The position numbers and the translations under genes were made by a program. The notes beneath the pieces were generated by a model, which saw only the letters and a program-made list of their open reading frames with translations, had not been told where the DNA came from and searched no databases. A stretch of 64,000 nucleotides of DNA, taken from contig JAIQGL010000011.1 in the NCBI GenBank assembly GCA_020072585.1, forward strand, positions 1-64,000, read 5' to 3'. The stretch is from Terriglobia bacterium. GTDB lineage: Bacteria > Acidobacteriota > Terriglobia > Terriglobales > Acidobacteriaceae. How positions within the stretch are numbered: the stretch's first letter is position 1; each line of letters starts with the position of its first letter. Shown piece by piece: positions 8,104 to 52,091 of this stretch.

Positions 8104-8113
8104 ACATACATTC

Positions 8114-19427: not shown

Positions 19428-19622
19428 GGGCTTTCCTTTCCAAGCGTATCGGCAAAAATCGGTGCCTTCACCCAATCCCTTACGCAAACACGAAAGGAAA
19501 AACGCCATGCAACAAAAACATTTTAGAGACCCATTACATGCGACAAAAGCGGAGCAGTGGAGTGCTTAGTTGCGAATTCCGCAAGTGTCTCCGGCCAGCA
19601 TCCATAAGGAAGGTAGTGAGTT

Positions 19623-23435: not shown

Positions 23436-23617
23436 ATCGTGCTCACCCTCCATAGCAAGCTAAGGAGCAGACTTAGCTTGACCTACGAGCCAAATCACAG
23501 AACGACAGCGGACCTGTGAGACCCGCACTGACGCGACGTAAAGTCATCTTGCCAGAAAGCAGCCAACTCTTTGCAGTGTACAATGATGGCGTTTTTTGCG
23601 AAACCGATCCCGGGCCG

Positions 23618-33059: not shown

Positions 33060-33988
33060 TATGTTTCTGCCTGGAATGGTGGCGTGGGAGGATGATTCTC
33101 GACGACTTCCTTAGCCAACTCGAACGTAATAGGCTTTGAAGGATAGGCAGCAAGAAGCAAACCCGGAAGCAATCGCTGCGCCAGATCCGAATAGCTATAT
33201 CCGTACTTGCGCCCATCCTTTGCTCCCGTGGCAGTTACCAGACTGTGAATTTGCTGAGGGGTAAAACCTAACTCCTCTAGCACCGGCTGCAGAAACGCCT
33301 GACGCTGCTGTTCATTGGGGCGCATAAAGGTGAATGTCACCGCGGCCCGGCGGCGAATCGCCGGATCGAGCGCATCCACTCGATTCGTACACATGATTAC
33401 CATCGCCGGAAGGTTTCCCACCGCCAAATCATCCACGCCACGAATCAAGGCATTTACTCCAGCACGGTCTTCATGATGCATTTGGGCCAGTTCCCGAGAT
33501 TGCGCCAAGGCGTCGGCTTCATCAATCAAAAGCACAACCCCGGACGAATGCCTGGCCCCTCGTCCTGATGCCTTCTTGGCTGCCTGCTTAACTTCGCCGA
33601 ATGCTTTTGATAACAACATTGTCATTTCGCCGACTGCACCAGTCCCGCGAGCGTTCAGACTCAATGCAAAGAGTACCAGGCGCATGTTCGCTTCTCGGGC
33701 AACCGCATCGCCGAAGGTCTCAGCCAAAGCAGTTTTGCCTGTTCCGACGTCGCCAGCAAAAATGAATAGGGGAGGGCGGTCACGAAAAAAATCAACGAGA
33801 CGAGTTTTTCTCCGATGGTGTTTGCTGCTCCATGCGGTCAGACTCTCCGGATCAAAAAGCAGCCTAGCTTCCTTAAGAAGCCGCTCCTTCATGTGGTCAA
33901 GCCCGACCAAGGCGGCATATCTTCTTGCCGCTGTAGGATCTGGAAATTCTCGCACCTCTTCAAAAATCTCGATGTTTTCTTGATTCAT
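33059..33988 (-). CDS. cap6: CBASS TRIP13/Pch2-like AAA+ ATPase
   Basis: 309 residues. AAA+ motifs: PLFIFAGDVGTGKTALAETF (Walker A, ~residues 73-92), VVLLIDEADALAQSRE (Walker B) and MVIMCTNRVDALDPAIRRRA (sensor 1 and arginine finger). The fold and the neighbouring HORMA gene match Cap6, which disassembles the HORMA/CD-NTase complex and so restrains signalling until a phage trigger is present. The ATG overlaps the HORMA stop by four bases. Confidence 0.9.
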   Translation of the reverse strand: MNQENIEIFEEVREFPDPTAARRYAALVGLDHMKERLLKEARLLFDPESLTAWSSKHHRRKTRLVDFFRDRPPLFIFAGDVGTGKTALAETFGDAVAREANMRLVLFALSLNARGTGAVGEMTMLLSKAFGEVKQAAKKASGRGARHSSGVVLLIDEADALAQSRELAQMHHEDRAGVNALIRGVDDLAVGNLPAMVIMCTNRVDALDPAIRRRAAVTFTFMRPNEQQRQAFLQPVLEELGFTPQQIHSLVTATGAKDGRKYGYSYSDLAQRLLPGLLLAAYPSKPITFELAKEVVENHPPTPPFQAET

Positions 33989-34494
33989 GACGCAGGCTGA
34001 AACGTTCGACGGCTTAAACCACGTCCTCCGGAGAAGTAGTTACGATCCGTTGTCCAATACCCTGCCCCGTCTTGCGGTGGCTCGCCATTAGCGCGTTGAA
34101 CCGGCAGATTGGCTTTGAAGTTCTCCCGCTGCGTTGACGAAAGTTGAAAAAATCGCGAATTTTGAGTCAGGTAGTTGAAGAATGTTGCGCCTCTGATGTC
34201 CACGTATGCCGCCACATTGCCTGGACGCTCATCGGTCGTAAGAACGCCATTTTCATCAACTTTGTAGCGCCAGCTCACAACCCGCTTGTTGTCCTTTTTG
34301 AACCCGAACTCGTACTCCTCTATGTAACCCGCATTGAGATATTGCGCCAGTTCTTCTGCATAATCGCGGATGTCCTGTTCGGAAGGCAATCCATAATATG
34401 AGGCGCAGAGGTGCATGTCGGTGGCAACTTTGGCCCCTAATTTGCGCGCGTGAATGATTGAAAAGGTCTCTGTTCGTGTATAGCTGTAAGACAT
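33985..34494 (-). CDS. cap7: CBASS HORMA-domain protein
   Basis: 169 residues from the ATG at 34494; the frame runs to 34539 but that part overlaps the upstream gene, and GAGG precedes 34494. It opens MSYSYTRTETFSIIHARKLG and has a central YIEEYEFGFKKDNKRVVSWRY beta section and a C-terminal safety-belt-like region (GGRGLSRRTFQPAS). HORMA proteins in type III CBASS sense a peptide signal and activate the CD-NTase. With a single HORMA gene the operon is of the III-A form. Confidence 0.85.
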   Translation of the reverse strand: MSYSYTRTETFSIIHARKLGAKVATDMHLCASYYGLPSEQDIRDYAEELAQYLNAGYIEEYEFGFKKDNKRVVSWRYKVDENGVLTTDERPGNVAAYVDIRGATFFNYLTQNSRFFQLSSTQRENFKANLPVQRANGEPPQDGAGYWTTDRNYFSGGRGLSRRTFQPAS

Positions 34495-34499
34495 TGATG

Positions 34500-35507
34500 T
34501 TAGCCTCGGAATGACGGTCCTAAGACATCCTGCCAGCATTCAATCGCCCGGCCACGCGTTGTCGCAAAACGCGCTTCCGAAATTGCTTCTAACGCATTCT
34601 GGGCCGCATTGACAATTTTCTGACGCTGGCTTTCGTTGTAAATTGCAGCAACATTGTTGTTTTCGTTGACCGGATCAAAAACCTCGATCGGTTTGCCGGT
34701 CGATTTTGCCAACTTCGAAGCGGGATAATAGTCAGTGAAATAGACTCTCGTCTTGAGCCGTGATTTCACGATGTACGCAAGCACCTTTTCCAGCGCCACG
34801 GTGTAATCCGACATATCGACGCCATCATCAGCAAGGTGCGAGACAATCATTTCAGCCATAAAGGATTTGAACTTGAAACCGTCGTCATTGAGTTTCTGTA
34901 TCCGAATCCACCATTTCACCAGGCGAACCATCTGCGCGAAGTGATCCTTCTGGCGGGCCTTGCGTTTGCGAATGAATGCCAGATGCAGGGGAATGCTGGT
35001 TAGTACCGGCTTGCCGCCATCGAAAGCAAAGAGATATCCACGCCCATCGGGATCATCTTTGTATTGGACCGGCACAACATCGACGCTCAACCCGCTTACC
35101 GCATATGTAATACAGACCGAGTGCTTATTAACCTTGATCTGGTCCGCCTTCATCTGGGGATACGCCTCTCGCAGACGGGCAGCCAACCAATTGAGCAGAT
35201 CGGGCTCTGCGCTCGGCGTCTTTTCCGCTTTCACATAGAACGCGACATCAATGTCGTTTAGCGTCTTCAGAGCTGTGCCTTTGGCGAGGCTTCCGGAGAG
35301 CATAGTCTTAATCAAGCCGTATTCAGGATGATCAGCCGCATATTTGTCGAGCTTGTCGCGGAGCCGGCGTACCTGCTCCCGATAGTCTTCAGCGTCCTCT
35401 CGCTTGAGATTCACGCAATCATCAGCAAACGCCGCGATATCAGCGTGGCTGATCGGCGCAGATGAAAAAGGGGTCTCGGCAGCCGCCTGTGCTCCAAGCA
35501 TATCCAT
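34500..35507 (-). CDS. CBASS cyclic-nucleotide synthase (CD-NTase, clade C type)
   Basis: 335 residues from the ATG at 35507, which has AAAGGA upstream; the open frame to 35621 invades the divergent promoter. Polymerase-beta-like nucleotidyltransferase motif: MLSGSLAKGTALKTLNDIDV (G-S and D-x-D) and a third acidic strand LSVDVVPVQY. The helical C-terminal domain is intact. Clade C enzymes paired with HORMA/TRIP13 typically make cyclic trinucleotides; the product here cannot be read from sequence. First gene of the four-gene operon. Confidence 0.88.
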   Translation of the reverse strand: MDMLGAQAAAETPFSSAPISHADIAAFADDCVNLKREDAEDYREQVRRLRDKLDKYAADHPEYGLIKTMLSGSLAKGTALKTLNDIDVAFYVKAEKTPSAEPDLLNWLAARLREAYPQMKADQIKVNKHSVCITYAVSGLSVDVVPVQYKDDPDGRGYLFAFDGGKPVLTSIPLHLAFIRKRKARQKDHFAQMVRLVKWWIRIQKLNDDGFKFKSFMAEMIVSHLADDGVDMSDYTVALEKVLAYIVKSRLKTRVYFTDYYPASKLAKSTGKPIEVFDPVNENNNVAAIYNESQRQKIVNAAQNALEAISEARFATTRGRAIECWQDVLGPSFRG

Positions 35508-35593
35508 TGATCCTTTCTTACGATTGGGGCCCCACGCTCTCTTGTCGAGGTCTATACTCCCCATAGAAAGCGCTTGATCGTACTCTGGATGCA

Positions 35594-35629
35594 GTTTACA
35601 ATAAATACTAACAATGCGCAAATGTAAAC
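35594..35629. promoter_or_regulatory. Divergent operator: 7-bp inverted repeat
   Basis: GTTTACA (35594-35600) and TGTAAAC (35623-35629) are perfect inverted half-sites with centres 29 bp apart, about three helical turns. They lie 13 bp before the regulator ATG and 86 bp from the CD-NTase start. A minus-strand -10-like TAGTAT (35610-35605) and a plus-strand TACAAT (35597-35602) fall inside. It is a likely binding site for the HTH-ImmA/IrrE regulator. Confidence 0.55.
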
Positions 35630-35642: not shown

Positions 35643-36740
35643 ATGATCGCGGATCGCATCAAGCTTGCTCGTCGGAAAGCTGGTTTGTCGTTGCGCGGCC
35701 TTTCCGAAGCCATGGAAGGCAGAGTCACCGCCCAGGCCATCGGCAAATACGAGCGGGGCGAGGACATCCCAAGCTCAGGTGTATTGATTGCTCTCGCCAG
35801 AGCCCTTAAGGTCTCAGTCGCTTATCTCCTCGACACGCAAAGCGTGGAATTGTCTGGCGTGGAATTTCGGACCAAGGCAAGCACGAGTGCGCGTGAGCGG
35901 GCGCATGTCGAAACGGAAGTGCTGGAGTGGATAGAACGCTATCTGCAAGTCGAACAGATGCTGGAGCTTGACAGCGCTGAGTGGCAATGCCCCGTCGCGA
36001 TGCGCTGCATACTCAATCGTGTTGAAGAAGCTGAACAACTGGCAGATGACGTGCGAAGCCACTGGAAATTGGGAATTGATCCCATTCCCAATATGACAGA
36101 GCTTTTAGAAGAGAAGGGGCTTAAGGTTCTTACGGTCTCGCTTCCCAACCGCGTGTCCGGATTCACGTGTCTTGTGAAACGCCCCAATGCTTCGGATCTG
36201 CCTGTCATTGTTGTTAATGATCAATTCTCGCTGGAGCGCCGCCGTCTTACGTTGGCCCATGAGCTCGCCCACCGGATAATCGATGCTCAAATGCTTTCCA
36301 CCAAGGAAGGGGAAAAGGCCGCTACGGTGTTTGGCGGGGCATTTCTCATGCCAAGGGAGCACCTCTTGCGCGAAGTTGGCAAGCACCGCCACTCTCTCGG
36401 CTACAGGGAGTTGATCGATCTCAAGCGGCTTTACCGTGTCAGCGCCGCTGCCCTGCTCATGCGCCTGCGCCAAATTAATGTCATCGACGACGCGACGCTT
36501 GTATATGCTTTTCAGACGGTCGCGCGCCGCTGGCGCACGCAGGAGCCCGAGGAGCTTGAACTGCCGGAGGAGCGGGGCAAGCGCGAACGTGCGCTCCGGT
36601 TCAATCGGCTATGCTACCGCACGCTGGCCGAGGGAATGATTTCACTGGACAAAGCTGCGGAGCTTTTGCGGCAGCCGCTGCCCGAAGTCGAGCGAGGATT
36701 GAAAGGCCCGCAAAACGCGCATGCGGATCGTCGTCAGTGA
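35643..36740 (+). CDS. XRE-family HTH regulator fused to ImmA/IrrE metallopeptidase
   Basis: 365 residues. N-terminal Cro/C1-type HTH (about 5-60: DRIKLARRKAGLSLRGLSEA, ending in a VAYLLD helix). The C-terminal COG2856 domain carries the zinc peptidase motif LAHELAHRIIDA (H-E-x-x-H, near residue 208) and the later GAFLMPREHL segment. Such proteins are repressors or regulators that can be inactivated by self or partner cleavage. CapH (HTH) and CapP (ImmA/IrrE peptidase) control CBASS in published systems. Here the two functions are in one chain, divergent from the CBASS operon. It is followed by an overlapping PIN gene, so an alternative view is a COG2856-Xre/PIN toxin-antitoxin pair. Confidence 0.9.
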   Translation: MIADRIKLARRKAGLSLRGLSEAMEGRVTAQAIGKYERGEDIPSSGVLIALARALKVSVAYLLDTQSVELSGVEFRTKASTSARERAHVETEVLEWIERYLQVEQMLELDSAEWQCPVAMRCILNRVEEAEQLADDVRSHWKLGIDPIPNMTELLEEKGLKVLTVSLPNRVSGFTCLVKRPNASDLPVIVVNDQFSLERRRLTLAHELAHRIIDAQMLSTKEGEKAATVFGGAFLMPREHLLREVGKHRHSLGYRELIDLKRLYRVSAAALLMRLRQINVIDDATLVYAFQTVARRWRTQEPEELELPEERGKRERALRFNRLCYRTLAEGMISLDKAAELLRQPLPEVERGLKGPQNAHADRRQ

Positions 36741-37227
36741 CAGCAGCTGCATCATCGACCTCAGGAAAGCATCCCTTCTGGATGTCTTTCTGAAGCTTCC
36801 GTACGAAATCCTCATTCCAAACACGCTGTTCGAGGAAGAGCTGTTGAAATTCACGGAGGTGCAAAAGCGCGCACTGATTAAAGGGGGACTGAAGGTTATT
36901 GATCTTCCCGGTGAGCGCGTCCTAAGAGCGCAGCAGGTGATTCGCACTGCCCCTCGGCTGTCCGTGAACGACGGATTTGCGTTTGCCCTGGCAGAAAGCT
37001 ATCCGGGTTGTATTCTGCTCACAGGAGACGGTTACCTGAGGGATTTGGCAACCACACACAAGATTGAAGTTCACGGTCTTTTATGGGTGGTGGATGAAAT
37101 TCATCAGCACAAGCTCCGTGCTGCGGATATTTTGTGTGCCGCCTTGCGGCTCTTAGCGAATGATCCAGCGGTCAGGCTACCGCAGCGGGAATTGGCCGCC
37201 TTAATCAAGAGATTTGAAAATCTATAG
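36721..37227 (+). CDS. PIN-like domain protein (DUF3368/DUF4411 type)
   Basis: 168 residues. PIN-like features: MRIVVSDSSCIIDLRKASLL (first acidic residues), a central LSVNDGFAFALAE (acidic helix), and ILLTGDGYLRDLA (third acidic strand). PIN proteins are Mg-dependent RNases and often the toxin of toxin-antitoxin pairs. Its start overlaps the end of the HTH-ImmA/IrrE gene by 20 bases, so the two are coupled. Members of this kind are known partners of COG2856-Xre proteins. Confidence 0.8.
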   Translation: MRIVVSDSSCIIDLRKASLLDVFLKLPYEILIPNTLFEEELLKFTEVQKRALIKGGLKVIDLPGERVLRAQQVIRTAPRLSVNDGFAFALAESYPGCILLTGDGYLRDLATTHKIEVHGLLWVVDEIHQHKLRAADILCAALRLLANDPAVRLPQRELAALIKRFENL

Positions 37228-37547
37228 TGTTGCAAGCCATTTTGACTTGAGTGAGTAGTTCCCATCGTATTGAGTATTACCCAAATCCTCTTACATTCCA
37301 TTTCCAAGTGAACAAGAGCAATAGCCCCCAATCTTTCCAGGTGTTCTAGTTCTGGAACGCGACGGTAAATCCAAAGCGCTTTCGCTGCTCGGCCTGGTGC
37401 CTAAAACCCGCCGTGCTGCAGATTGTCTGCGCAGTATCCCGCTAAAAGGCAAGCAGCTGAGCCACCATCTGATTTGAACCCCGCAGAATCATTCCTTCCT
37501 GCCATTCGGTCTCCAGTAATCTCGCCATCCGGGGTTCCCAGACAGAT
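37228..37547. other. Intergenic stretch, nothing recognised
   Basis: About 320 bases between the PIN gene and the convergent recombinase gene. No ribosome-binding site with a plausible frame and no clear terminator seen. Confidence 0.5.
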
Positions 37548-38507
37548 CTACGCCTCCGTGCGAAGATTGAGAGACGGATGCCTCTTCTGCAAAACCGCGA
37601 TTAGATGCTCTTTACTGATATGTGTATAGCGCTGGGTCGTCGCAATCGATGCATGTCCCAGGAATTCCTGCACCACTCGAATATCGACACCGTTTTGGAG
37701 AAGCAATGTAGCGACGGTGTGTCGCAACATGTGCGGCGTTACGTGTCGCTCGATTCCGGCCTCACGGCGCAATTGAGCGACGACGTTCGCGATCCCCTGA
37801 GTGGATAGGCGTTTCCGGGATGAATTGAGGAACAGCGCAGAACTTTCCGTTTCAATCTGTTTCCTGGCTCGAAGATGGTCTTTTTGGATTTGTAGGCTCT
37901 TCTCATCGACCGCGAAGGCCAGACGCGCCCGTCCGCCTTTACCCTTTATTTTGAACATACCCTCGCTTTCAAAAAAATCGTCGAGGTTGAGAGTAGACGC
38001 CTCTCCCACTCTCATACCTGTCGCAAAAAGAATGTCTATCAGTGCTAAGTTTCGGGTAAAGCGGTATCGTCCAAATACCAACCGCTCTTGAGTTGACGTT
38101 TGCCCGTTTTGCAGATCGATTGGCTTGTTCTGGGCTGCTCTCGACAAAAGAGCCCGCATTTCGCGTTCCGTTAGGGACCGAGGAAGCTGTTCTATCCGAC
38201 CAATGCTCAGTTTTACTCGCCAGAAAGGTGATTCAGTTAATAGCCCTTTGCGAACCCAGTAGCCGCAAAACACCTTAAGAACAACAATTTTTCTGCGAAT
38301 CGAAGCGGGCGAATAGCGGTTTTGACGAAGGTCAGCTGCGAAGCGCTCGATTGTGGTACCGGCGAGGCTCTCAACTTCGTTCTCCCCTCCGGCAAATGCC
38401 TGGAACTGCAGGAGGTCAGACTCGTACGCCGCCTTTGTCTTCGCACTGCGGTCGTGAGTCGAGAAATAGCCACTCAGAAAATCAGTGCAAGCATGATTTA
38501 GCTGCAT
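37548..38507 (-). CDS. Tyrosine recombinase/integrase
   Basis: 319 residues. N-terminal SAM-like core-binding domain (to ~105), then the catalytic domain with the R-K-H-R-H-Y layout: ATGMRVGEASTLNLDD (first Arg), HVTPHMLRHTVATLLL (H-x-x-R) and FLGHASIATTQRYTHI (His and the tyrosine nucleophile). It is XerC/D-like in size. It sits between the CBASS/TA block and the biosynthetic-looking cluster. The likely targets are the nested palindromes just upstream, or the tRNA-Ser-like direct repeats. Confidence 0.95.
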   Translation of the reverse strand: MQLNHACTDFLSGYFSTHDRSAKTKAAYESDLLQFQAFAGGENEVESLAGTTIERFAADLRQNRYSPASIRRKIVVLKVFCGYWVRKGLLTESPFWRVKLSIGRIEQLPRSLTEREMRALLSRAAQNKPIDLQNGQTSTQERLVFGRYRFTRNLALIDILFATGMRVGEASTLNLDDFFESEGMFKIKGKGGRARLAFAVDEKSLQIQKDHLRARKQIETESSALFLNSSRKRLSTQGIANVVAQLRREAGIERHVTPHMLRHTVATLLLQNGVDIRVVQEFLGHASIATTQRYTHISKEHLIAVLQKRHPSLNLRTEA

Positions 38508-38891: not shown

Positions 38892-39890
38892 ATGCAAGAC
38901 TCTCCTAAGCAATTTCATTATCGCGGTGTAGCAATTGTCGCGGATTTATTTGATAACAAAGAGGATACCCCTTTACATCTGCGCCATGATCTTGAGATGA
39001 CCCATGAGGAGACACGCGAAGCGGTATTGACTGCGGTTCGAGAACTCGGCCTAAAAGCTTATCTTTACGAAACTCCCAGAGCGCTTGCCACTTATGCGGC
39101 AAATCATACGAATGATGTCGTTTTGTCATTATTCGGAGGGAAACATTCCCGAAACCGTCTGGCACTCATTCCCGCTATCTGTGAAGCATTTGGACTTGCA
39201 TATGTTGGTGCTGATGCATATAGCAGCATCATTTGCCAAGACAAGGAGGTGGCAAAAGCAATCGCACGCGACGCAGGCCTTGACGTAGCGTCGCATCGAA
39301 TCATACGGCATGCATCGGATTCAGGGTCAATGGATTTGCCCATGCCATATGTCGTCAAACCGCTTTGGGAGGGCAGCTCAATCGGGATTGGACCGGACAA
39401 TCTGGTTCGGACATCTAGCCAGGGCAAAGCCGTGATCCAACGTGTTCTCGATACGTTTCATCAACCAGTGCTTGTTGAAGCCTTTATTCCTGGCAGGGAG
39501 GTCAGCTGGTGCTTTCTCAATGGAGGCGGGACGGACCTCGTTCGATCTTTTACAGAAATAGTGTGGAATGATGAACCAATGCATTTTGATGATCACCTGT
39601 ACGATGCTGAACACAAATCTGATGATGAAAAGCGGGCATTCCGTAACATCATGAAGGAACTTGAAGGTGGTGATGCGGAGGCAATGGAGCGTATGCTTAA
39701 GCTCATAGGCGGCCTTAATTATGGGCGAATTGACGGGAAGCTTAAGGAAGGCAAGTTCACTTTCATTGAGATTACACCGGATCCTTGGCTAGACCCTTCC
39801 GGAGTTTTTAGCTCCCGATTCGGGCTTCCTTTCCAGGAAGTTATTGCGCGTTTGCTTCTCTCAGCAAGAAAATTCCCTCAAGATCAATAA
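38892..39890 (+). CDS. ATP-grasp ligase, D-Ala-D-Ala ligase-like
   Basis: 332 residues. ATP-grasp features in order: VLSLFGGKHSRNRLALIPAI (N-terminal domain), YVGADAYSSIICQDKEVAK, YVVKPLWEGSSIGI (the ATP-binding lysine and serine loop), PVLVEAFIPGREVSW, and a C-terminal YGRIDGKLKEGKFTFIEITP metal-binding strand. The usual E-x-N of Ddl is E-I-T-P-D here, so one metal ligand is changed. The family joins a carboxylate (often an amino acid) to an amine with ATP. Isolated from cell-wall genes and set in a cluster with a PLP decarboxylase and oxygenases, it probably works in specialised metabolism. Its 3' end overlaps the convergent STAND gene by 50 bases. Confidence 0.82.
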   Translation: MQDSPKQFHYRGVAIVADLFDNKEDTPLHLRHDLEMTHEETREAVLTAVRELGLKAYLYETPRALATYAANHTNDVVLSLFGGKHSRNRLALIPAICEAFGLAYVGADAYSSIICQDKEVAKAIARDAGLDVASHRIIRHASDSGSMDLPMPYVVKPLWEGSSIGIGPDNLVRTSSQGKAVIQRVLDTFHQPVLVEAFIPGREVSWCFLNGGGTDLVRSFTEIVWNDEPMHFDDHLYDAEHKSDDEKRAFRNIMKELEGGDAEAMERMLKLIGGLNYGRIDGKLKEGKFTFIEITPDPWLDPSGVFSSRFGLPFQEVIARLLLSARKFPQDQ

Positions 39891-42415: not shown

Positions 42416-45400
42416 ATGTCACCTGATGGCAAGCGAAATTGTACAGCATGTGTGCAAGGAAGAGGAGCTTATGTACACGGCGTTACAATCCAGACCTTCC
42501 GCACAAGACAAATGTTGCTTGAGTTAGGCCACGCTCTCGAATCCTTGGCAGTGAAGGCCCAACACCATGTGGTCGGTCCGCAGGCAGACTGGGAGTTGTT
42601 TGCAGATGCGATTATTTCGGGGAGGAGAAATGTTGGTGTTTGTACTGCCAGCCGGCTTGCGAAAGAAATAGCTGCTTCCATCAATGAGAATTGCGATTCG
42701 GAAGCATTATGGCGGTACTGTGCCGCCAAAATTTTTCGGACGACCGAGGCCACTACGTCCGATCTTGGAATGCGATGGCATCTAATTTGCCAATCTTCTG
42801 AGCTTCAGGAACTATACCAGTATGTAACTTTACAGGTATTTCAAGAGCCATTAGTCGCGATAAGAAATAAAAGGGGCATTGAGGTCTTTCTCAATATATG
42901 TCCGCACCGTCAAACCCAGCTACTGACTGGAAGCGGGCGGCTGCGACAGGCAGGAATTCGCTGCCAATATCACTTGTGGGCATTTTCCTGCGAAGGAAAT
43001 TGCCTGAATATTCCGGGATCAAGTCGTTTGGAATTCGGATCTGAACTGCCAATATCAGAATATCATCTCCAGCAACTGCCTTCTGCCGAAGTGGATGGAT
43101 ATATTTACGTATGGCTGGGTGAAGGAAAGTCCCCCAGCCTGCCCAGTTCGCCAGTCTCGAAGAGCATGGCCAGACGACCGGCGGCCCTGCGCATTGCAAG
43201 ACTTTTGGATTCAGTGCATCCGAGTTTTCCGGATGTCAGGAACCCGGAGCTCCCCGATGACGTGCGGTTTTTGATTCGTCTTGGCTGGCTTAAAGCAGCC
43301 CTCGAACGGAAAGCTGCAGCTATTTTGCCCTCTCACAGGATGCCGATCTGGCAGTTGCTGGAACGCATGCGAGAGTTGCATCCTGCAGAGAGCAATGCTA
43401 TTAGCCTTTATCTTCTGGAATTGCGGCAAGGCTTTTTCGATTGCGGCTCTTTGCCAGAAGGATGGGCAGAGTTCAGGGAAAAACTATTGCTACTTAGGCC
43501 GGAAGCACCAGCCCGTAGCACCAGGCCTATTTCTGAAGCGGCGTGCGATGAAGCAGGTCTAAAAAGTTTGCCGATTTGGACATATTGCAGCAGGGAAATG
43601 TTCCTGCTCGAGGTCGAGCATTTAATCAAGCCCACGTGGCAATTCATCTGTCACGAAAAAGAAATTCCTTCTGTCGGCGATGTGACCTATCTCGATATTG
43701 TTGGTGAACGTGTTTATGTCGGACGGCGTGCAGATGGTTCGCTTTTTGCCGGACGGATGCTTACGCGGTTCGTGGAAGAGCCCGGGATATCCTCGTTGGA
43801 GCGTTGCCTGGAACCTGTTGATCTTGAAGTTTGGAACGGTCTTATTTTTATCCGGCTCTCAGGAAAGGGACAGCCGGTACGAGAGACATGGGAGTACCCA
43901 CGGCTCCTGGAGCCTTATCGTTTGTGGGAAATGGAACCCATTGAATCGGGATCGTATGATTTCGATGTAGAGGCCAATTACAAGATCTTATGGGAAAATT
44001 TTCTGGAATTGTACCACTTCCAGGCTGTTCATAAGGGCACCTGCCGGCTATTCCATGTGCGTCCCGAATCGGACTTGCTCGCTCTGCGTCAATCATTATC
44101 TCCATACTGCACAAAGGAAGAGCTCAGCTATGCCACATATTTACGTACTTCACCTCCTCATTCGGAGGAAAATGAGATCGCTTTTCGTGAACTAGCCGAT
44201 ACAAAAAAATATATATCTGCACCACTGCGATTTACCTTCTTCGGATCAATCGCCAAGCAGGACCAATCTCCTATCACGATGGGTCTTACAGTTTTTCCGG
44301 ATCACATCCAGGCAATGTCTTTTATTCCATTGGGACCAGACAACTGCCGAATACGCATTCGCAGCTATGGCCACAAGCTCGACTTGGGCACAGACTATGG
44401 TAGAGCAATGGCAGCAGCGCGCGATATCAATGTTCGATCGTTACAAGTCAAACTGATTGAAGAGGACATCCGGCTGAATTATTTCACGGCAAGGGCCGCA
44501 ACCTCCAAAGTGTACAGGGGAGTCGGCGTATTAGGCCGAATGGAGGAATCAATTCGTCAATTCCAAAAACAAGTATACCGGGCCATAAAGGATAACGCAT
44601 CTGCTGCTCAGCGAAGACCGGGAACGCTCAACCATCTTCGACCGACCAACCACGAGCAGGCCGTTCCAAGACAGAATTGCAGGATCTCCTCTCCCGAGCC
44701 GGCTCGGATGTGCGAAAGGAGAATAAAGATGTTCTCTGGGCAGTTGCGCGAACTCGCAACGCCCGCCTTTGTTATCGACAATGATCAATTGTTGGAGCAG
44801 GCAACAGGTATAAAACGCCTGGCGCAAGAGGCTGGCTGCACGTTTTTATATGCCATGAAGGCCCTCAGCTTCGGAGCGGTCATCCGGACAGTTGCGCAGC
44901 AAGCCGATGGCTTATCAGCAAGTTCAATTTTCGAAGCATCACTGGGACGTGAAATTCTGGGTCCACAAAAGGAGATACATGCTGTTTCTCCAGGGTTCCG
45001 ATCTGAAGAAATTGGGATGATTACAGAAATTTGCAACGTGCTGGTCCTCAACTCGTTGTCCCAGTGGCATCGGTTTAGAAATCTTGCCAATGCTTGCTCT
45101 TTCGGGTTGCGGATTAACCCTGGATTGTCAATTGTCAAGGATAGGCGATACGACCCGTGCCGAAAAGATTCAAAGCTAGGCGTCCCCATTGATTTACTCG
45201 CCGATGCTCTCGAGGGGAGGAGCGCCGAGTTTGACAACCTTGAAGGATTCCATATCCATACAGCCTGCGATCTCGACGACTTCGACTATCTCTTCAACAC
45301 TGTTTCACGAATCGAATGCCGTCTCTTGATGGGCCGGCACCGGTTGCGCTGGATCAACCTTGGTGGGGGGTATCTTTTTGATGGTGCGAAAAGGGTGCAC

Positions 45401-45895
45401 TGCCTTTTCGAAACAATTCATCGCCTGCGTTCCCATTATGGTCTGACCGTATACATAGAACCAGGCGCTGCCGTGGTACGGCAAGCGGGATTCCTTGTTG
45501 CGAGCGTAGTTGATCTTTTCACGTGTGGCCAAGGCGAGGTTGCGGTGCTTGACACATCCATTAATCATGCACCGGAAACATTCGAATATCAGTTCGCGCC
45601 GCCGGTCTCCAGCGCCTCGACAATGGGTCAATATGAATATTTACTTGCAGGCGCCACATGTCTCGCGGGCGATCTTTTTGGCACTTACAGGTTCGATGAG
45701 AGGCTCGAAATCGGCTCAAAGATTGTGTTTACGGATATGGGAGCATACACCTTGGTGAAGGCGAATATGTTTAATGGGTTCAAACTGCCTGCAATTTACA
45801 CCTTCTCCAGCTCTACTGGTTTTGAGTTGCGAAAAGATTGCAAATATGAGGATTTTTTGCTGGCAAATGGAGAAACGCCGCATGCTACTTTATGA
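42416..45895 (+). CDS. Fusion: Rieske domain + cluster-less Rieske-type oxygenase + NspC-like PLP decarboxylase
   Basis: 1159 residues. Residues ~130-235 are a Rieske [2Fe-2S] domain with intact ligands C162-x-H164 and C183-x2-H186 (ICPHRQTQ ... RCQYHLWAF). Residues ~385-735 look like a ring-hydroxylating oxygenase alpha subunit. Its own Rieske lobe (WQFICHEKEIPSVGDVTYLD) keeps the fold text but has lost the C-x-H/C-x2-H loops. The catalytic lobe keeps the iron triad: ENFLELYHFQAVHK (two His) and a late EEDIRLNYF (Asp). Residues 772-1159 are a fold III PLP decarboxylase of the carboxynorspermidine type: FLYAMKALSF (PLP lysine ~814), INLGGGYLFDG, IEPGAAVVRQ and CLAGDLFGTY. An internal ATG at 44729 with AAAGGAG seven bases upstream could also make the decarboxylase alone. 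The pathway is unknown. Confidence 0.85.
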   Translation: MSPDGKRNCTACVQGRGAYVHGVTIQTFRTRQMLLELGHALESLAVKAQHHVVGPQADWELFADAIISGRRNVGVCTASRLAKEIAASINENCDSEALWRYCAAKIFRTTEATTSDLGMRWHLICQSSELQELYQYVTLQVFQEPLVAIRNKRGIEVFLNICPHRQTQLLTGSGRLRQAGIRCQYHLWAFSCEGNCLNIPGSSRLEFGSELPISEYHLQQLPSAEVDGYIYVWLGEGKSPSLPSSPVSKSMARRPAALRIARLLDSVHPSFPDVRNPELPDDVRFLIRLGWLKAALERKAAAILPSHRMPIWQLLERMRELHPAESNAISLYLLELRQGFFDCGSLPEGWAEFREKLLLLRPEAPARSTRPISEAACDEAGLKSLPIWTYCSREMFLLEVEHLIKPTWQFICHEKEIPSVGDVTYLDIVGERVYVGRRADGSLFAGRMLTRFVEEPGISSLERCLEPVDLEVWNGLIFIRLSGKGQPVRETWEYPRLLEPYRLWEMEPIESGSYDFDVEANYKILWENFLELYHFQAVHKGTCRLFHVRPESDLLALRQSLSPYCTKEELSYATYLRTSPPHSEENEIAFRELADTKKYISAPLRFTFFGSIAKQDQSPITMGLTVFPDHIQAMSFIPLGPDNCRIRIRSYGHKLDLGTDYGRAMAAARDINVRSLQVKLIEEDIRLNYFTARAATSKVYRGVGVLGRMEESIRQFQKQVYRAIKDNASAAQRRPGTLNHLRPTNHEQAVPRQNCRISSPEPARMCERRIKMFSGQLRELATPAFVIDNDQLLEQATGIKRLAQEAGCTFLYAMKALSFGAVIRTVAQQADGLSASSIFEASLGREILGPQKEIHAVSPGFRSEEIGMITEICNVLVLNSLSQWHRFRNLANACSFGLRINPGLSIVKDRRYDPCRKDSKLGVPIDLLADALEGRSAEFDNLEGFHIHTACDLDDFDYLFNTVSRIECRLLMGRHRLRWINLGGGYLFDGAKRVHCLFETIHRLRSHYGLTVYIEPGAAVVRQAGFLVASVVDLFTCGQGEVAVLDTSINHAPETFEYQFAPPVSSASTMGQYEYLLAGATCLAGDLFGTYRFDERLEIGSKIVFTDMGAYTLVKANMFNGFKLPAIYTFSSSTGFELRKDCKYEDFLLANGETPHATL

Positions 45896-47201
45896 AAAGC
45901 ATTTTGAAGCGTCATTTGCCTGGACAAACGGTCTCTTCGCAAGTATCCGGGAATCCGCAGAAACACATCTTTTGCCTGGCGAGGTGCCGGTCCGCTTCGC
46001 TGTTACAGCAACACCAGGCGTGATTTCCTGCGAAATGGATGTGCTCACGGAATGCGATCAGCCGGACGTTGGCCGTATATTCGAGTTTTATAAAAGAAAA
46101 ATTACACGGGAAGAACAGTTCACTGCAATTTTGGTCATTCCGACAGGAATCGGCGCAGAATTGGGAGGCCATGATGGCGATGGCGGGCCGGCGGCGTGCC
46201 TCCTTGCCTCTTGCTGCGACATCCTGATCACTCATCCGAATGTTGTGAATGGCTCAGATATCAATGAGCTCCCGGAAAACGGCCTGTATGTCGAAGGTTC
46301 AGTGGTTTCCCGGCTGCTCATGGGACAGATTGGCCTTCGGACCGTGCGCAGCAACCGTGTTCTGGTTGTATTGGGGTGTTCGAAAGACCCATTTTTCGTA
46401 GACGCCGCGATAAATGCAGTAAACGCCGCGAGGGCCACCTACGGCCTTTCCGTGCCGGAAATTATCTTATTAGACCGGGAATTCCAGATGGTTAGCGCAT
46501 ACGCTCCCTCCGGCAGGGCAGTGGGACGTATTAATGGAATTGAGGATCTATTAGATGTACTTCGAACAAACCGATCGAAATATGATGCAGTGGCAATTGC
46601 TTCCGCCGTAAAAGTCAATGATCAATTGCGCGCCGACTATTATTCTAGCGATAAAAAAATCATCAATCCCTGGGGTGGCGTAGAAGCAATGCTCACACAT
46701 TCCATCTCATTGCTTCATGACATACCTACCGCCCATGCTCCCATGTGTGATTTTCGAGAACATGCAATTGCGGATTCCGGTGTTGTCGATCCGAGGATCG
46801 CCGCTGAAGTCATCTCATTTACTTTTCTGCAATCGGTATTGAAAGGGCTGCAGCGGAGTCCAGGCATCATCGCAAACCCCGATGCAATGTATTTTCCCGG
46901 CGTGATCACAGCTGCTGATTGCTCATGTCTGGTTATACCGGATGGTTGCATAGGCTTGCCCACACTTGCTGCATTACTGCAGGGCATTCCAGTGATCGCA
47001 GTACGCGAAAACCGGAATCTTATGCGCAATGATTTGGCTGCTTTGCCTTGGTCCGCAGGACAGCTCACCATGGTTGAGAACTATTGGGAAGCCGCCGGTG
47101 TATTGAACTGTCTCAGGGCGGGGCTCGCTCCGGAGTCAGTACGCCGTCCCCTGCTGAAAGCTGCTGTAAAAGCAAGCAGAGCGCGTGCATTGGCCTTTTA
47201 A
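45882..47201 (+). CDS. DUF3326 family protein
   Basis: 439 residues. The chosen ATG at 45882 lies inside the end of the previous gene (14-base overlap) and has GGAG nine bases upstream; an ATG at 45867 is also in frame. The signature stretch is VIPTGIGAELGGHDGDGGPA followed by a D-I-L-I-T-H-P-N-V-V-N-G-S-D-I-N-E segment. This is the conserved core of DUF3326, a family of unknown function found sporadically in cyanobacteria and others. The overlap makes co-translation with the decarboxylase likely, so it is a candidate enzyme of the same pathway. A later SCLVIPDGCIGLPTLAALLQ segment looks like a second ligand-binding lobe. Confidence 0.8.
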   Translation: MLLYEKHFEASFAWTNGLFASIRESAETHLLPGEVPVRFAVTATPGVISCEMDVLTECDQPDVGRIFEFYKRKITREEQFTAILVIPTGIGAELGGHDGDGGPAACLLASCCDILITHPNVVNGSDINELPENGLYVEGSVVSRLLMGQIGLRTVRSNRVLVVLGCSKDPFFVDAAINAVNAARATYGLSVPEIILLDREFQMVSAYAPSGRAVGRINGIEDLLDVLRTNRSKYDAVAIASAVKVNDQLRADYYSSDKKIINPWGGVEAMLTHSISLLHDIPTAHAPMCDFREHAIADSGVVDPRIAAEVISFTFLQSVLKGLQRSPGIIANPDAMYFPGVITAADCSCLVIPDGCIGLPTLAALLQGIPVIAVRENRNLMRNDLAALPWSAGQLTMVENYWEAAGVLNCLRAGLAPESVRRPLLKAAVKASRARALAF

Positions 47202-47224: not shown

Positions 47225-47989
47225 TTATTTCAACCACAACGGATGGTCGGCGAATCGAAAAAAATTGTACAACGCTCTCGGAGAAAAATAGTTTGAAAAG
47301 TTCGTGCGATTAATGAAGTTCTCTGATAAGGCAATGGAAACCTCTTCATTCCGCACCGCATGCCACCATCCGCCGGGAGTAACTAACACCTCTCCAGCAT
47401 TTTGGATATATACGATAGGCTTTGCCCTGCGGAATAATGGAAATTGCTCAAAATCCGGCGAAAACGCGTTAACTTTACCGCGATACATCCAACGTGCCTC
47501 CCCCGGCTGAAAAAATATCCAGCGTTTCTTGCCTGACAGTAAGGCATTCCAAGCACTGGTATTTAAAAAATCAACATGCAGATGGGAGGCAGTGTTAGGC
47601 GGGCCAATGAAGATCCAGCGCCATATGGGGCGAATAAGCGCCGGCAGCCGCTCCGTCCACGAATAAAGGTATTCAGGCACACAATAATCTTGTTTTAGCG
47701 ATGGGCAATCAAACTCAAAACGCCAATCTTTCAGGTAATAGTTTGTGCATGGCCCACCTTTTTCCAGATCAGAAATATATTCACTGAGTGGCACTGTACG
47801 CACACTGTCATAGTTCTCAGAATTGCGCACGGTTACTTTAAGGTCGCCATAATATGTGCAAAAGAAATCTTTTGTCCAAAGACGTGCTGCATCCCATCGC
47901 GATAAAAGCCCTTCAATGGCCACAGGACGGCGCAAGGGGACTTGCTTCAGTAATTGATTCATTCTATGGGCGTTAATCCGGTCAATCAT
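47225..47989 (-). CDS. JmjC/cupin_8-type Fe(II)/2-oxoglutarate oxygenase
   Basis: 254 residues. Cupin core: TASHLHVDFLNTSAWNALLS (H-x-D iron ligands), KKRWIFFQPGEARWMY (2-oxoglutarate region), and EVLVTPGGWWHAVRNEE (distal His). This matches the cupin_8/JmjC hydroxylases that modify amino acids, peptides or proteins. It converges on the DUF3326 gene with 23 bases between the stops and lies at the end of the cluster. The ribosome-binding site is not obvious; an ATG at 47962 is an alternative. Confidence 0.85.
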   Translation of the reverse strand: MIDRINAHRMNQLLKQVPLRRPVAIEGLLSRWDAARLWTKDFFCTYYGDLKVTVRNSENYDSVRTVPLSEYISDLEKGGPCTNYYLKDWRFEFDCPSLKQDYCVPEYLYSWTERLPALIRPIWRWIFIGPPNTASHLHVDFLNTSAWNALLSGKKRWIFFQPGEARWMYRGKVNAFSPDFEQFPLFRRAKPIVYIQNAGEVLVTPGGWWHAVRNEEVSIALSENFINRTNFSNYFSPRALYNFFRFADHPLWLK

Positions 47990-50146: not shown

Positions 50147-51097
50147 TCACGGCGTCAACACCACAGGATGACTGCCGGAGTGTTCCGGTGCGGGTCCGCG
50201 CATGTCGGCCAATCCGAGTTCGATTCTTTCGCGAATGTCAGTAGCCAGGTTGTCGAGCCCCGGAAGGATGTCTGGTTGTGTAGCGCCGGTCAGTCTAAGC
50301 GTTCGGAGAATTGTCGTACGTGTACGTACCGGAATGGTGAGCCTTTTCATATGACAGCAACTGGGAGTACGGGTTTTGCGCATAAAATCGGCGAGCGCGC
50401 CGCGGCGATTCGTGTGCAATGTGAAACGTGAGTGTTGCGCCGCCAGACGATCGCTGATCTGGGGTGGAATAAGCGGAATTGGATAGTAGTCTCTGGGCCC
50501 CTGGCTATAGGACAGGTTTAAGTATTCGTCGATGTATCTGTCTTTTGTGGTTCGGTTCATCGGGTCAGCAATGCTTCGCCCAAGACCGCATTTCTCGCTG
50601 AGCGTTCGCGGATCGAGGACAAAGACGGCAGCCTCTGTCTCCTTCGCGGTCCTTACAGCGAAATACAGCGCAGTAAGAGCGTTTTTAGACCAATCCAAGA
50701 GGCGTGTCGGGAGGCCGTGATGCTGCATCAGAAAAATCCAGCCAAGGTGCGTCTTCGGGAGGACCTCAACGAGTCTTTGTCCTCCGCTTCTGAACCGGCT
50801 CAACATGTACCCTTCTAGCCACAGCAGAGTGTCTCGGTCCTGGTTGTACTTGTTCAGCACGGGATCGTTCGAACGTAAAAGTGTGGGTTCAAGCGGATAG
50901 TCTTTGTCAGACACCCCTCTCAGCCATGGTACGCTTTCGCCCGGATATGGCTCTTCGGAAGGATCAAGCCGGTCCCTCGCATCTCGTCGCCATTCCTCGG
51001 CTATGAGTTCGACCTCGTCAACGAAGTGCCCAACTGATCTCACTTCTTTTGTCGGGATATTAGTTTCCAGCGACGGCGCACAAGGTGCGTTGATCAT
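50147..51097 (-). CDS. FRG-domain protein
   Basis: 316 residues. The ATG at 51097 has GGAGG five bases upstream; a GTG lies one codon earlier. FRG domain features: VPWLRGVSDKDYPLEPTLLR (W-x-R-G) and GWIFLMQHHGLPTRLLDWSK followed by N-A-L-T-A-L-Y-F-A-V (F-x-x-x-Q-H-x-G-x-P-T-R-L-L-D-W), then RLAAQHSRFTLH (the Q-x-G/S-R-F-T part). FRG proteins are frequent in phage-defence islands and on mobile elements, but their biochemical activity is unsettled. It overlaps the upstream TauD-like gene by 38 bases, so the two form an operon. Confidence 0.88.
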   Translation of the reverse strand: MINAPCAPSLETNIPTKEVRSVGHFVDEVELIAEEWRRDARDRLDPSEEPYPGESVPWLRGVSDKDYPLEPTLLRSNDPVLNKYNQDRDTLLWLEGYMLSRFRSGGQRLVEVLPKTHLGWIFLMQHHGLPTRLLDWSKNALTALYFAVRTAKETEAAVFVLDPRTLSEKCGLGRSIADPMNRTTKDRYIDEYLNLSYSQGPRDYYPIPLIPPQISDRLAAQHSRFTLHTNRRGALADFMRKTRTPSCCHMKRLTIPVRTRTTILRTLRLTGATQPDILPGLDNLATDIRERIELGLADMRGPAPEHSGSHPVVLTP

Positions 51098-52091
51098 CAC
51101 GTCCTCCGGTCACTGAAGTGTTGATCAAAGTGCCTGCCCAGAAGCGTTCGAGCAGGCGCGTCGCCAGTGGATCATCGATGAACGCCCTCCTGTCGTGCGC
51201 GATGGCCGCGTTGTTAACAAACAAAATCTCGTTACGCATCAGGTTGATGTCGCATGAGAAGCGCTCCAATGCCTCGTCCAACATGTTGAGCGATTTGAGT
51301 GCCGCTTCAAGCCGTTCCATGTCGTGTCCGAGTCCATTTCTGACACGTTGCGGGTGGTATGAGAAATGGAGGTAGCGGGCGCCGTTCCTCTCCGCTTCGC
51401 AATAGATTGGTGCGGACTTCAAGCCTGCGTCCGTTGCGCCGGGAGCAAAAGGACTCTCCCTCGGAAAAGGCTTAGCCAATTCGTCCCTTGTTGTCGGCGG
51501 CAGTGACTTGTACGCCATCTGCGCATTGGCTACTCGCGACTGTCCGCCGAATCGCGCTGGGCGAACGCATAGCATCGAGAGCAGGTCCACGTTACGGTCA
51601 GCGATACCGCTACCATCGGTGTGAAAACCGATGGTATTGCCGCGAAGGCCGTTTCCCGAGTACCTGCCATTGGCAGTCGGATCCTGAACGGCCTCAAGAG
51701 CAAAGAGTGGTCGATGATCGCCATTCGGAGTTACCGTGACATTGCAGCCAAACTCGCAACCAAGGACGATTTGAAGCAGCCGTGCTTCGTCGGCGGAGCA
51801 CTTCGCTCCGCATTTCAGAACGGCAACCCCCGTCTGCCCAAGAACGAGGTCCTGGAGGCGCCGGCCGACGTGCTTCAACGATTCCGGGCAGACGACATCG
51901 AGAGGGTTTTTCCAATGACTTGAGTATTGACTCAGGAACGACTGGAGCTGAGGATGCGCCGTCTCCGATTCGATATCGACAATCCACTCGGCAGCGCGAG
52001 CCTGCAATTGGGGGCCGTCCCAATCAAAGGCTTGGAGGTCAGAAGGACTTCGTTCTGTACGGGCAGACGACCGAGGCGCTGGAAGTGGCAT
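51060..52091 (-). CDS. TauD/TfdA-type Fe(II)/2-oxoglutarate dioxygenase
   Basis: 343 residues. Start has GAAAGGGG upstream. Catalytic features: GNTIGFHTDGSGIADRNVDL (H-x-D iron ligands), NNAAIAHDRRAFID (distal His) and RLLERFWAGTLIN (Arg that binds 2-oxoglutarate). The N-terminal ~70 residues are not conserved with TauD. This clade often hydroxylates amino acids or small metabolites; the substrate is unknown. Unusually, it is translationally overlapped with an FRG-domain gene rather than biosynthetic genes. Confidence 0.88.
   Translation of the reverse strand: MPLPAPRSSARTERSPSDLQAFDWDGPQLQARAAEWIVDIESETAHPQLQSFLSQYSSHWKNPLDVVCPESLKHVGRRLQDLVLGQTGVAVLKCGAKCSADEARLLQIVLGCEFGCNVTVTPNGDHRPLFALEAVQDPTANGRYSGNGLRGNTIGFHTDGSGIADRNVDLLSMLCVRPARFGGQSRVANAQMAYKSLPPTTRDELAKPFPRESPFAPGATDAGLKSAPIYCEAERNGARYLHFSYHPQRVRNGLGHDMERLEAALKSLNMLDEALERFSCDINLMRNEILFVNNAAIAHDRRAFIDDPLATRLLERFWAGTLINTSVTGGRDDQRTLCAVAGN

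Follow-up and report, generated by a model that had tools for sequence, protein, structure and literature searches.

Within a 64,000-nt stretch of Terriglobia bacterium contig JAIQGL010000011.1 (hereafter, the window), one reading frame was described in a preliminary description as joining an intact Rieske domain, a Rieske oxygenase that lost its own iron-sulfur ligands, and an NspC-like PLP decarboxylase. This raises the question of whether the frame represents a real fused gene and, if so, how a protein with these parts could work.

A single frame joins oxygenase and decarboxylase domains

ORF translation places the boundaries of the fused gene at exactly 42416-45895 on the forward strand (1,159 codons), an assignment that draws on the frame call, profile matches, and homologs. 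The domain order of the protein product is N-terminal part, Rieske domain, spacer, Rieske lobe without a cluster, catalytic domain, linker, and NspC-like decarboxylase. Pfam analysis identified a Rieske domain (residues 121-205), Ring_hydroxyl_A (residues 513-724), and, at residues 808-1109, the two halves of a fold III PLP decarboxylase; the nspC model of NCBIfam also matched the chain, below its cutoff. Structure prediction for the whole chain was unusable (pLDDT 35.6).

Five genomes carry the fusion, with protein lengths of 1109-1159 aa: the window's own genome, Candidatus Paraburkholderia kirkii, Candidatus Paraburkholderia schumanniana, and two genomes designated G156 and G832. Ca. P. kirkii and Ca. 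P. schumanniana are leaf-nodule symbionts of Psychotria, with copies at 36-38% identity, and G156 and G832 are relatives of these two. The frame is open across the linker in all five genomes, and because it is conserved in them, it is more than a chance frame; the five fused copies also rule out a sequencing error. Homologs that always occur as separate genes were foreseen in the preliminary description as a refuting outcome, and the four additional genomes with a fused gene do not bear this out.

In the literature searched, we found no published description of this Rieske/lobe/decarboxylase layout, as the preliminary description had supposed, and the fused chain seems to combine known enzyme parts in an arrangement not described before. 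Of 150 genomes searched (own genome included), 128 had a match (own genome again included); the best match outside the own genome scored 56.5 bits and covered one domain, and no close relative with the fusion was seen among the 150. A search of 399 genomes of the same class, own genome included, scored at most two candidates per genome, and only the own genome passed E 1e-40. In the plasmid collection, neither the whole query nor its oxygenase part was covered to 80% by any record, and 100 pattern matches in the viral collection included no relative. The scan of genome contigs used exact peptide patterns and misses relatives, as it did not return G156 and G832.

The intact Rieske domain and the lobe without cluster ligands

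Even at E 1, residues 1-110 (42416-42745, forward strand) matched nothing in Pfam, and they are helical in a model of low confidence only. The intact Rieske [2Fe-2S] domain occupies residues 119-237 (42770-43126, forward strand), based on profiles, structures, and alignments, and its ligands are C162, H164, C183, and H186, just as first claimed. By sequence it is a Rieske domain both in the Pfam analysis and in comparison with solved structures (CntA and biphenyl dioxygenase). The spacer at residues 250-385 (43163-43570, forward strand) was delimited by homolog comparison and Pfam scan; it is shorter in the other fused copies than in the window copy, and positions 43151-43570 had zero Pfam matches at E 1.

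A second Rieske-fold lobe spans residues 386-480 (43571-43855, forward strand), based on structure matches, alignments, and a model, and it adjoins the catalytic domain at residues 481-735 (43856-44620, forward strand). In all five fused copies, the cluster ligands of Rieske alpha-subunits (C-x-H...C-x2-H) are found in the N-terminal lobe only. The second lobe thereby departs from the alpha-subunit norm, being a Rieske domain next to a catalytic domain with neither ligand pair in any of the five copies, in agreement with the preliminary description; the cluster-binding loops are missing from it in the fused copies aligned. Consistent with this, TBLASTN alignments through the second lobe show that ordinary oxygenases need 40-44 more residues than the query (221 vs 181 residues in one, H29, and 241 vs 197 in another, H26).

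The iron site reported to follow this lobe was recovered as E527-N-F-L-E531-L-Y-H534-x4-H539 and E682-E683-D684. The 2-His-1-carboxylate triad (H534, H539, and D684) and the bridging glutamate E531 are kept in all five fused copies, and every Rieske, iron, and PLP ligand that we checked is invariant among them. Two features of group V oxygenases can also be located: the position of the cysteine pair holds L or M at residue 532 and F at residue 535 in all five copies, meaning that the pair is not present, and the residue that corresponds to CntA Y203 is aromatic, F529 in all five (a group Va feature). Pattern scans of the viral collection returned 57 loci (12, then 45 more), from which we removed matches that were short or out of frame, truncated proteins, near-copies, and one protein that is not an oxygenase (L056), giving 23 proteins in one alignment and 18 in others. 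These oxygenases align with C162/H164/C183/H186 and H534/H539/D684 (23 rows, one of them cut before D684, and 18 rows); as they were selected by the Rieske or the iron motif, agreement is partly built in for the selecting motif but not for the other site.

A model of the second lobe plus the catalytic domain (pLDDT 71.7, pTM 0.75) adopts a Rieske oxygenase fold with 3vca as its best match (E 8.8e-15, TM 0.58), a resemblance that is partly built in because oxygenase rows are part of the model's alignment. Around the iron histidines the model is weak, with a block mean of 57, and it falls below 50 across much of the next 70 residues.

These comparisons bear on an alternative in which one ordinary oxygenase, with canonical electron flow between subunits, is made up of the N-terminal Rieske domain plus the catalytic domain, residues 210-480 are an inserted module, and the second lobe is a Rieske-fold domain that binds substrate or a partner and is not a former electron donor. 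Freely aligned oxygenases cover residues 111-210 and 481-735 but for the most part leave out 210-480, and an ordinary oxygenase frame in the own genome matches residues 112-206 and, after a gap of 12 bases, residues 461-541, both of which fit an insertion. However, the junction of the second lobe and the catalytic domain is canonical, with single TBLASTN pieces that span query residues 366-546 and 384-580 in ordinary oxygenases, and the model of the two domains matches whole oxygenase chains; we therefore regard an insertion as unlikely.

It is less likely still that the N-terminal lobe is a tethered Rieske ferredoxin serving as an electron relay and not as the direct donor, or that the catalytic domain is inactive and the role of the cluster lies in sensing or structure. 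The loss of the cluster from the second lobe and the lack of any reductase seen in the cassette are compatible with either version, but the N-terminal lobe is closest to the Rieske domains of oxygenase alpha-subunits (GbcA model and CntA structure), and the iron triad and bridging glutamate are invariant across very distant copies. Moreover, a relay would have nothing to relay to, as other cluster sites were not found in the chain.

The decarboxylase domain and a putative internal start

The linker between oxygenase and decarboxylase (44621-44728, forward strand) is poorly conserved among copies in both length and sequence. It is followed by the NspC-like fold III PLP decarboxylase at residues 772-1159 (44729-45895, forward strand), with key residues K815, H948, E1015, C1082, and Y1111. 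The fold III motifs that had been noted here are supported by the Pfam matches to both halves and by features present in all five copies, namely the PLP lysine K815, H948 of the HxH motif, GGG at residues 983-985, EPG at E1015-G1017, and the catalytic C1082, with ligands invariant throughout.

The label "NspC-like" suits the fold but not the branch, which is separate and has altered pocket motifs. The nspC model (TIGR01047) matches residues 780-1148 of the window protein with 305 bits, and the scores for G832 (290), G156 (279), and a sixth genome, G866 (214), are likewise below the equivalog cutoff of 409. All six proteins linked to a DUF3326 gene have the pocket motif NHxPE, vs HM[PL]D in four solved and seven plasmid-borne relatives; the second pocket motif is EPGA in the DUF3326-linked proteins vs mostly EPGE in NspC relatives. 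In a tree with seven plasmid-borne NspC controls, drawn from 246 records with matches, the DUF3326-linked decarboxylases form a branch apart from the controls (100/99). Judged by these comparisons, the fused decarboxylase is a separate branch and not NspC proper.

A true carboxynorspermidine decarboxylase, within a cassette that modifies polyamines, would account for nspC being the best named family and for the four closest solved structures being named carboxynorspermidine decarboxylases. We consider this reading quite unlikely given the scores under the cutoff in the window, G832, G156, and G866, the NHxPE/EPGA motifs, the separate branch, and a cassette from which a dehydrogenase partner of the saccharopine-dehydrogenase type is absent. 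Such a dehydrogenase is annotated beside three of six plasmid-borne NspC relatives (300-bp flanks, with two of the six flanks lacking annotation), and we take it that the sole protein over the PF03435 cutoff in the own genome does not resemble carboxynorspermidine dehydrogenase.

In G866, a decarboxylase from this branch is encoded as a separate protein, followed by DUF3326 and with no Rieske partner beside it, so the oxygenase is not needed for the decarboxylase step in every genome. In the decarboxylase tree, G866 nests inside the fused group (support 91/88) on a long branch; the fusion may have been lost there, or it may have arisen twice.

An AAGGAG ribosome-binding site (44716-44721, forward strand) lies 7 nt before an in-frame ATG at 44729 (codon 772), a putative internal start at the domain border. 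The ORF contains 68 in-frame ATG, GTG, or TTG codons, and a site of this kind precedes just two of them, codon 1 (GGAGG, spacing 14) and codon 772 (AAGGAG, spacing 7). The same rule found none at the in-frame start codons of the other fused genes (0/61 in Ca. P. kirkii, 0/59 in Ca. P. schumanniana, 0/55 in G156, and 0/46 in G832), and it is a strict rule, as the first codons of these four genes also lack a site. Based on this site, which is specific to the window copy, a free decarboxylase may also be made in the window organism, and coupling within a single chain may not be obligatory there. A stronger version, in which the window organism makes two proteins and the fusion is a read-through of little functional weight, fits the position of the one additional site at the domain border; nevertheless, the linker frame is open in five genomes and the other four genes have no such in-frame site, which makes this version improbable.

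Conserved neighbors of the fused gene

A 439-aa DUF3326 gene (45882-47201, forward strand), identified by Pfam and homolog comparison, overlaps the fused gene by 14 nt. This overlap with the DUF3326 start is present in all five fusion genomes (computed in four and read from the sequence in G156). The window's DUF3326 protein is a full PF11805 member (302.5 bits); against solved structures it gave chance matches only (best E 0.42), and the plasmid collection had zero matches. Elsewhere, the family is described as a cyanobacterial conserved hypothetical that clusters with a ferredoxin gene (PMC4284462); the link to a decarboxylase found here is not part of that description.

Next to DUF3326, on the reverse strand, is a JmjC/Cupin_8 (JMJD6-like) oxygenase gene (47225-47989), which is convergent in the window and codirectional in Ca. 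P. kirkii, Ca. P. schumanniana, and G832. The protein's profile matches JMJD6 (E 6e-33), and H138-x-D140 and H210 are invariant in three copies. It resembles JMJD6/JMJD5-type oxygenases in its iron residues and profile, but it is bacterial and stands alone. A whole DUF3326 gene with an adjacent JMJD6-like gene occurs in four of the five fusion genomes. In G156, DUF3326 similarity extends over about 70-78 codons and stops some 0.5 kb short of the contig end, and a JmjC match is absent from the sequence between this remnant and the contig end; the cassette may thus be broken in one symbiont. Judging from gene order, the fused gene is kept together with DUF3326 and the JMJD6-like oxygenase.

Many Rieske oxygenases rely on an unlinked reductase. 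A Pfam scan of 22 window proteins, among them the fused one, out of 55 listed ORFs of at least 150 aa, identified no reductase. With a reductase still not in evidence, the fused enzyme does not appear to be self-sufficient, and according to a 2025 review, self-sufficient Rieske oxygenase systems are not known (PMC12445004).

A proposed bifunctional enzyme

As read from its sequence, the chain has one Rieske cluster site, a cluster-less lobe beside an iron site, and a PLP decarboxylase site. The explanation that we favor, and consider fairly probable, is a bifunctional biosynthetic enzyme in which the N-terminal cluster feeds the iron of the catalytic lobe and the decarboxylase acts in the same pathway. 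The Rieske domain would have been duplicated in tandem, and the copy adjoining the catalytic domain would then have shed its cluster loops and taken on a scaffolding role. The other copy, at the N-terminus, would dock at the former loop position, either in the same chain or across the interface with another subunit. Electrons, supplied by a reductase encoded elsewhere in the cell, would pass from the N-terminal cluster via E531 to the iron, where the substrate would be oxygenated. In CntA, the bridging glutamate is required for electron transfer (PMC10952381, PMC7948474), and the cluster-iron distance is 44 Å within a subunit and 12.2 Å between subunits (PMC7948474), so a route between chains is as possible as one in cis.

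The decarboxylase would act on the same substrate or on a neighboring intermediate, removing a carboxyl group from what is probably an amino-acid-like compound that bears a distal nitrogen, and tethering would couple the two steps. DUF3326 and the JmjC enzyme may act on the same product. Rieske oxygenases are trimers and fold III decarboxylases are dimers, so the simplest assembly would be a hexamer (dimer of trimers). The full proposal, in which donor and catalytic roles are split over tandem lobes, welded to a decarboxylase in a coupled hexamer, and used with DUF3326 and JmjC in a new small-molecule pathway of leaf-nodule symbionts and one distant lineage, has in our estimation slightly less than an even chance of being correct.

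A natural enzyme that has both centers, with the donor on another lobe, would test which contacts are needed for electron transfer and could be a template for self-sufficient Rieske fusions. In six genomes, the orphan family DUF3326 gains a partner in a decarboxylase branch. The cassette also points to an unrecognized set of metabolite genes in leaf-nodule symbionts; cyclitols such as streptol are described among the known products of these bacteria.

Comparison with known systems

In Rieske oxygenases with solved structures, the pairing of cluster and iron is fixed. Both CntA and the 2025 review accord with this pairing (PMC7948474, PMC12445004). The closest solved relatives of the fused protein are two group V enzymes, CntA carnitine monooxygenase for the N-terminal Rieske domain and Stc2 stachydrine demethylase for the second half of the oxygenase. 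Both share with it the bridging glutamate and, where motif spacing places F529 opposite CntA Y203, an aromatic residue, which marks group Va (PMC7948474); however, they hold cluster and iron in one standard unit and have no fused decarboxylase. CntA is also described as having a cysteine pair, C206/C209, beside the iron (PMC10952381).

NspC (TIGR01047; PDB 9eaf, 3n29, 3mt1, and 36gy) resembles the fused domain in its fold, PLP lysine, and Cys-Leu-Ala-Gly-Asp segment, and plasmid-borne NspC relatives align with the fused domain at 30-36% identity among the 25 matches listed. In contrast, NspC belongs to another branch with other pocket motifs, and the fused domain scores below the family cutoff in a cassette without a polyamine partner.

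The nearest precedent for divided labor is the chlorophyllide a oxygenase of Micromonas pusilla (MpCAO), which is alike in principle only. Work by Kunugi in 2013 reportedly placed its Rieske site on one chain and its iron site on the other. The active MpCAO enzyme is described as consisting of two polypeptide chains (PMC9615114), whereas the protein studied here is encoded in one frame; MpCAO further differs in its chlorophyll substrate and in the absence of a decarboxylase.

Fused reading frame and domain content

The preliminary description placed one gene at 42416-45895 on the + strand of the window, and this frame was recovered exactly, from ATG to stop (1159 aa), with the quoted residues at the positions that had been reported. 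Pfam identified Rieske (residues 121-205), Ring_hydroxyl_A (residues 513-724), Orn_Arg_deC_N (residues 808-1021), and Orn_DAP_Arg_deC (residues 1018-1109) matches. Among NCBIfam models, nspC spans residues 780-1148 at 305 bits, which is under its 409-bit cut-off, and GbcA (glycine betaine monooxygenase) spans residues 119-237 (78.9 bits). A literature search for “carboxynorspermidine decarboxylase” together with “Rieske” returned no paper, although absence in a search is not absence in print. Likewise, no description of the fused enzyme was found in the literature covered on DUF3326, leaf-nodule metabolites and symbionts, and tandem or fused Rieske proteins, although other printed sources may contain one.

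Fused homologues and distribution of DUF3326

A scan of one species-genome collection identified one full-length relative each in Ca. Paraburkholderia schumanniana (38% identity) and Ca. P. kirkii (36%); the two are 96% identical to each other. In 58 genomes of their genus, a profile search found three fused genes, namely these two and one in genome G156 (1116 aa), and searching 398 genomes of the Ca. P. kirkii family for DUF3326 led to the fused gene of genome G832 (1109 aa). The same fused frame therefore occurs in four further genomes, giving five fused genes with that of the window. The cassette (the fused gene, a DUF3326 gene, and a JmjC oxygenase gene) was found in none of the other genomes among 150 searched.

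DUF3326 occurs in three of 396 genomes in the window's phylum (its own, G866, and G1079), in 1 of 38 in the class of G866 (G866 itself), and in 1 of 369 in the class of G150 (G150 itself). Across the family and phylum searches, 5 of the 11 distinct DUF3326-matching genomes have the fused gene beside it. In G866, a free 405-aa decarboxylase directly precedes DUF3326, and the other match to the search alignment is of Rieske type and lies on a different contig. In the region L049:4262-10680 of this distant genome, the decarboxylase-DUF3326 pair lies near genes for an ATP-grasp ligase (PGM1_C type), a SET-domain protein, and a pentapeptide-repeat protein; the locus may encode a related, unfused pathway. 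Neither a fused gene nor a free decarboxylase was found within the 13-19.5 kb inspected in G575, G601, G543, G1079, and G529, the last with an interrupted DUF3326 fragment (L051:9584-9793) whose match crosses two stops and which is probably a decayed gene. In G1079, the DUF3326 relative (L050:3139-4230; 36%) adjoins a 2822-aa frame (4404-12872) that by eye is nonribosomal peptide synthetase-like. Three genomes from the family of Ca. P. kirkii (loci L046, L047, and L048) have DUF3326 alone, at 51-52% to that of the window, and all three share similar surroundings, with neighboring genes that by eye resemble those of a ketoacid dehydrogenase complex.

Second lobe of the fused protein

When residues 386-735 alone were searched with phmmer, the matches were Rieske oxygenases, including 7yls (whole-sequence E 1.2e-7), and for several of these the strongest segment was query positions 5-60 (residues 390-445). 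In the Rieske oxygenase Stc2 (3vca), residues 26-81 aligned to query 5-60 and residues 127-221 to query 71-166, each piece being weak when taken singly (6.5 and 26.3 bits). Only 10 query residues separate these pieces versus 45 in Stc2: this lobe lacks the cluster-binding loops themselves as well as the ligands. Two single tblastn pieces through the lobe agree with this gap: 181 query residues (366-546) align to 221 codons (E 8e-15) and 197 query residues (384-580) to 241 codons (E 3e-11). Between residues 386 and 480, a C-x-H or C-x2-H pair is absent from all five fused proteins; of the His and Cys residues there, H413 alone is conserved across the five. The proposed second Rieske-like lobe without cluster ligands was thus borne out, with the loops missing as well.

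The predicted structure of residues 380-735 (pLDDT 71.7, pTM 0.75) scored 85-94 in the ten-residue blocks 11-70, which cover this lobe, 57 in the iron-histidine block, and <50 in much of the following 70 residues. Among solved structures it best matched stachydrine demethylase entries, with 3vca at E 8.8e-15 and TM 0.58, followed by a putative dioxygenase and CntA. Because the alignment used as model input contained 18 oxygenases, the phmmer and tblastn evidence is more independent than the model.

Metal ligands and possible electron route

In a free alignment of the fused protein with 23 oxygenases from a viral collection, which passed over most of residues 210-480, the cluster ligands land on C162, H164, C183, and H186 and the iron ligands on H534, H539, and D684, the sole miss being one protein that ends before D684. 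All seven also belong to the ten invariant columns of a 21-row alignment (C162, H164, C183, Y185, H186, W188, H534, H539, P628, and D684; residue numbers are the printed positions plus 89). This coincidence upholds the intact N-terminal cluster ligands and iron triad of the preliminary description. E531 sits at the position of the bridging Glu205 of CntA. In the CntA study, Glu205 mutants are inactive, and cluster and iron lie 44 Å apart within one subunit and 12.2 Å apart between subunits (PMC7948474). With the second lobe emptied, no cluster site other than the N-terminal one was found in the fused chain; the simplest reading of the sequence would have this cluster feed the catalytic iron. 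Chlorophyllide a oxygenase of Micromonas, with its Rieske site and its iron site on different chains, is the nearest precedent. The active Micromonas enzyme consists of two polypeptides (PMC9615114).

Cassette organization and surroundings

Between the window and Ca. P. kirkii, identities are 36% for the fused protein, 53% for DUF3326, and 46% for the JmjC protein. In each of the five genomes, DUF3326 begins inside the end of the fused gene, with a 14-nt overlap (computed in four, read off the sequence in G156). Ca. P. kirkii, Ca. P. schumanniana, and G832 have the JmjC gene after DUF3326 and co-directional with it; in the window it is convergent. In G156, DUF3326 similarity ends after about 70-78 codons, ~0.5 kb short of the contig end; the rest of the contig has no JmjC match, and a 189-bp stretch of this tail (L027:5042-5567) recurs elsewhere on the same contig at 96% likeness. 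Together these features indicate that the G156 cassette is either interrupted by an insertion or misassembled. Conservation of content in the other four genomes, despite the JmjC inversion, supports a common function for the cassette genes. The JmjC protein matches the JMJD6 profile, and H138-x-D140 and H210 are invariant among three aligned copies.

In the window, the cassette (GC 0.46-0.51 versus 0.534 for the window) has a defence-type region and a gene for a tyrosine recombinase in its vicinity, a setting that fits horizontal gain.

Elsewhere in the window, four genes at 31830-35621 (-) encode a SAVED effector, an AAA ATPase, a bacterial HORMA protein, and a SMODS nucleotidyltransferase, which we take to be a CBASS anti-phage system of the kind that includes HORMA and TRIP13-like components. 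A Strawberry-notch-type helicase (10424-14863), an RHS protein (14889-19508), and a kinase-TPR protein (19623-22286) lie upstream of an 1814-aa protein (23516-28960) whose weak NACHT match does not reach the cut-off; the group resembles a variable or defence region. The stretch 35643-38507 contains an HTH plus IrrE/M78 peptidase gene, a small gene after it, and, close to the cassette, a gene for an XerC/D-like tyrosine recombinase on the - strand. A Ddl-like ATP-grasp gene (38892-39890) passes the Pfam cut-off and scores under the threshold for each listed NCBIfam ligase family, and a TauD-family oxygenase gene (51060-52091) overlaps an FRG-domain gene (50147-51100).

In Ca. P. kirkii, a 3-dehydroquinate-synthase-type gene ~19 kb from the fused gene is followed by genes for a DegT aminotransferase, a Gfo/Idh oxidoreductase, and a HAD hydrolase, presumably the known cyclitol region; no protein of this kind was found among 22 window proteins scanned. 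The G832 surroundings were compared with the cassette and the kirkii neighbors only. Divergent genes before the kirkii cassette (L017:2496-7469) encode a short-chain dehydrogenase, 309- and 333-aa proteins with no Pfam match, and a 697-aa HEAT-repeat protein whose JmjC_2 match narrowly misses the cut-off.

Possible internal start and decarboxylase branch

Only 2 of the 68 in-frame ATG/GTG/TTG codons of the window gene have AGGAG or GGAGG 3-14 nt upstream: codon 1 (spacing 14) and codon 772 (AAGGAG, spacing 7), the latter coinciding with the onset of decarboxylase homology. Both full-length and free-decarboxylase forms may be made in the window organism. By the same rule, none of the 61, 59, 55, and 46 in-frame starts of the other four fused genes qualifies, first codons included. 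In the 100 codons that precede the domain border, ATG is absent from the genes of Ca. P. kirkii and Ca. P. schumanniana and present in those of G156 and G832, there with neither motif at the required spacing.

A PF03435 search of the window organism's own genome recognized no polyamine partner (PF03435-type dehydrogenase), because the sole protein over cut-off (another fell under) presumably belongs, from its sequence, to another saccharopine-dehydrogenase-like type. In a tree, a branch with support 100/99 separates the window decarboxylase domain and its five DUF3326-linked relatives from seven plasmid-borne NspC proteins. All six of these DUF3326-linked decarboxylases carry EPGA and NHxPE, whereas the plasmid-borne NspC proteins carry HM[PL]D (7/7) and mostly EPGE (6/7), and four solved relatives likewise have HM[PL]D; this difference in pocket motifs suggests that the substrate may differ.
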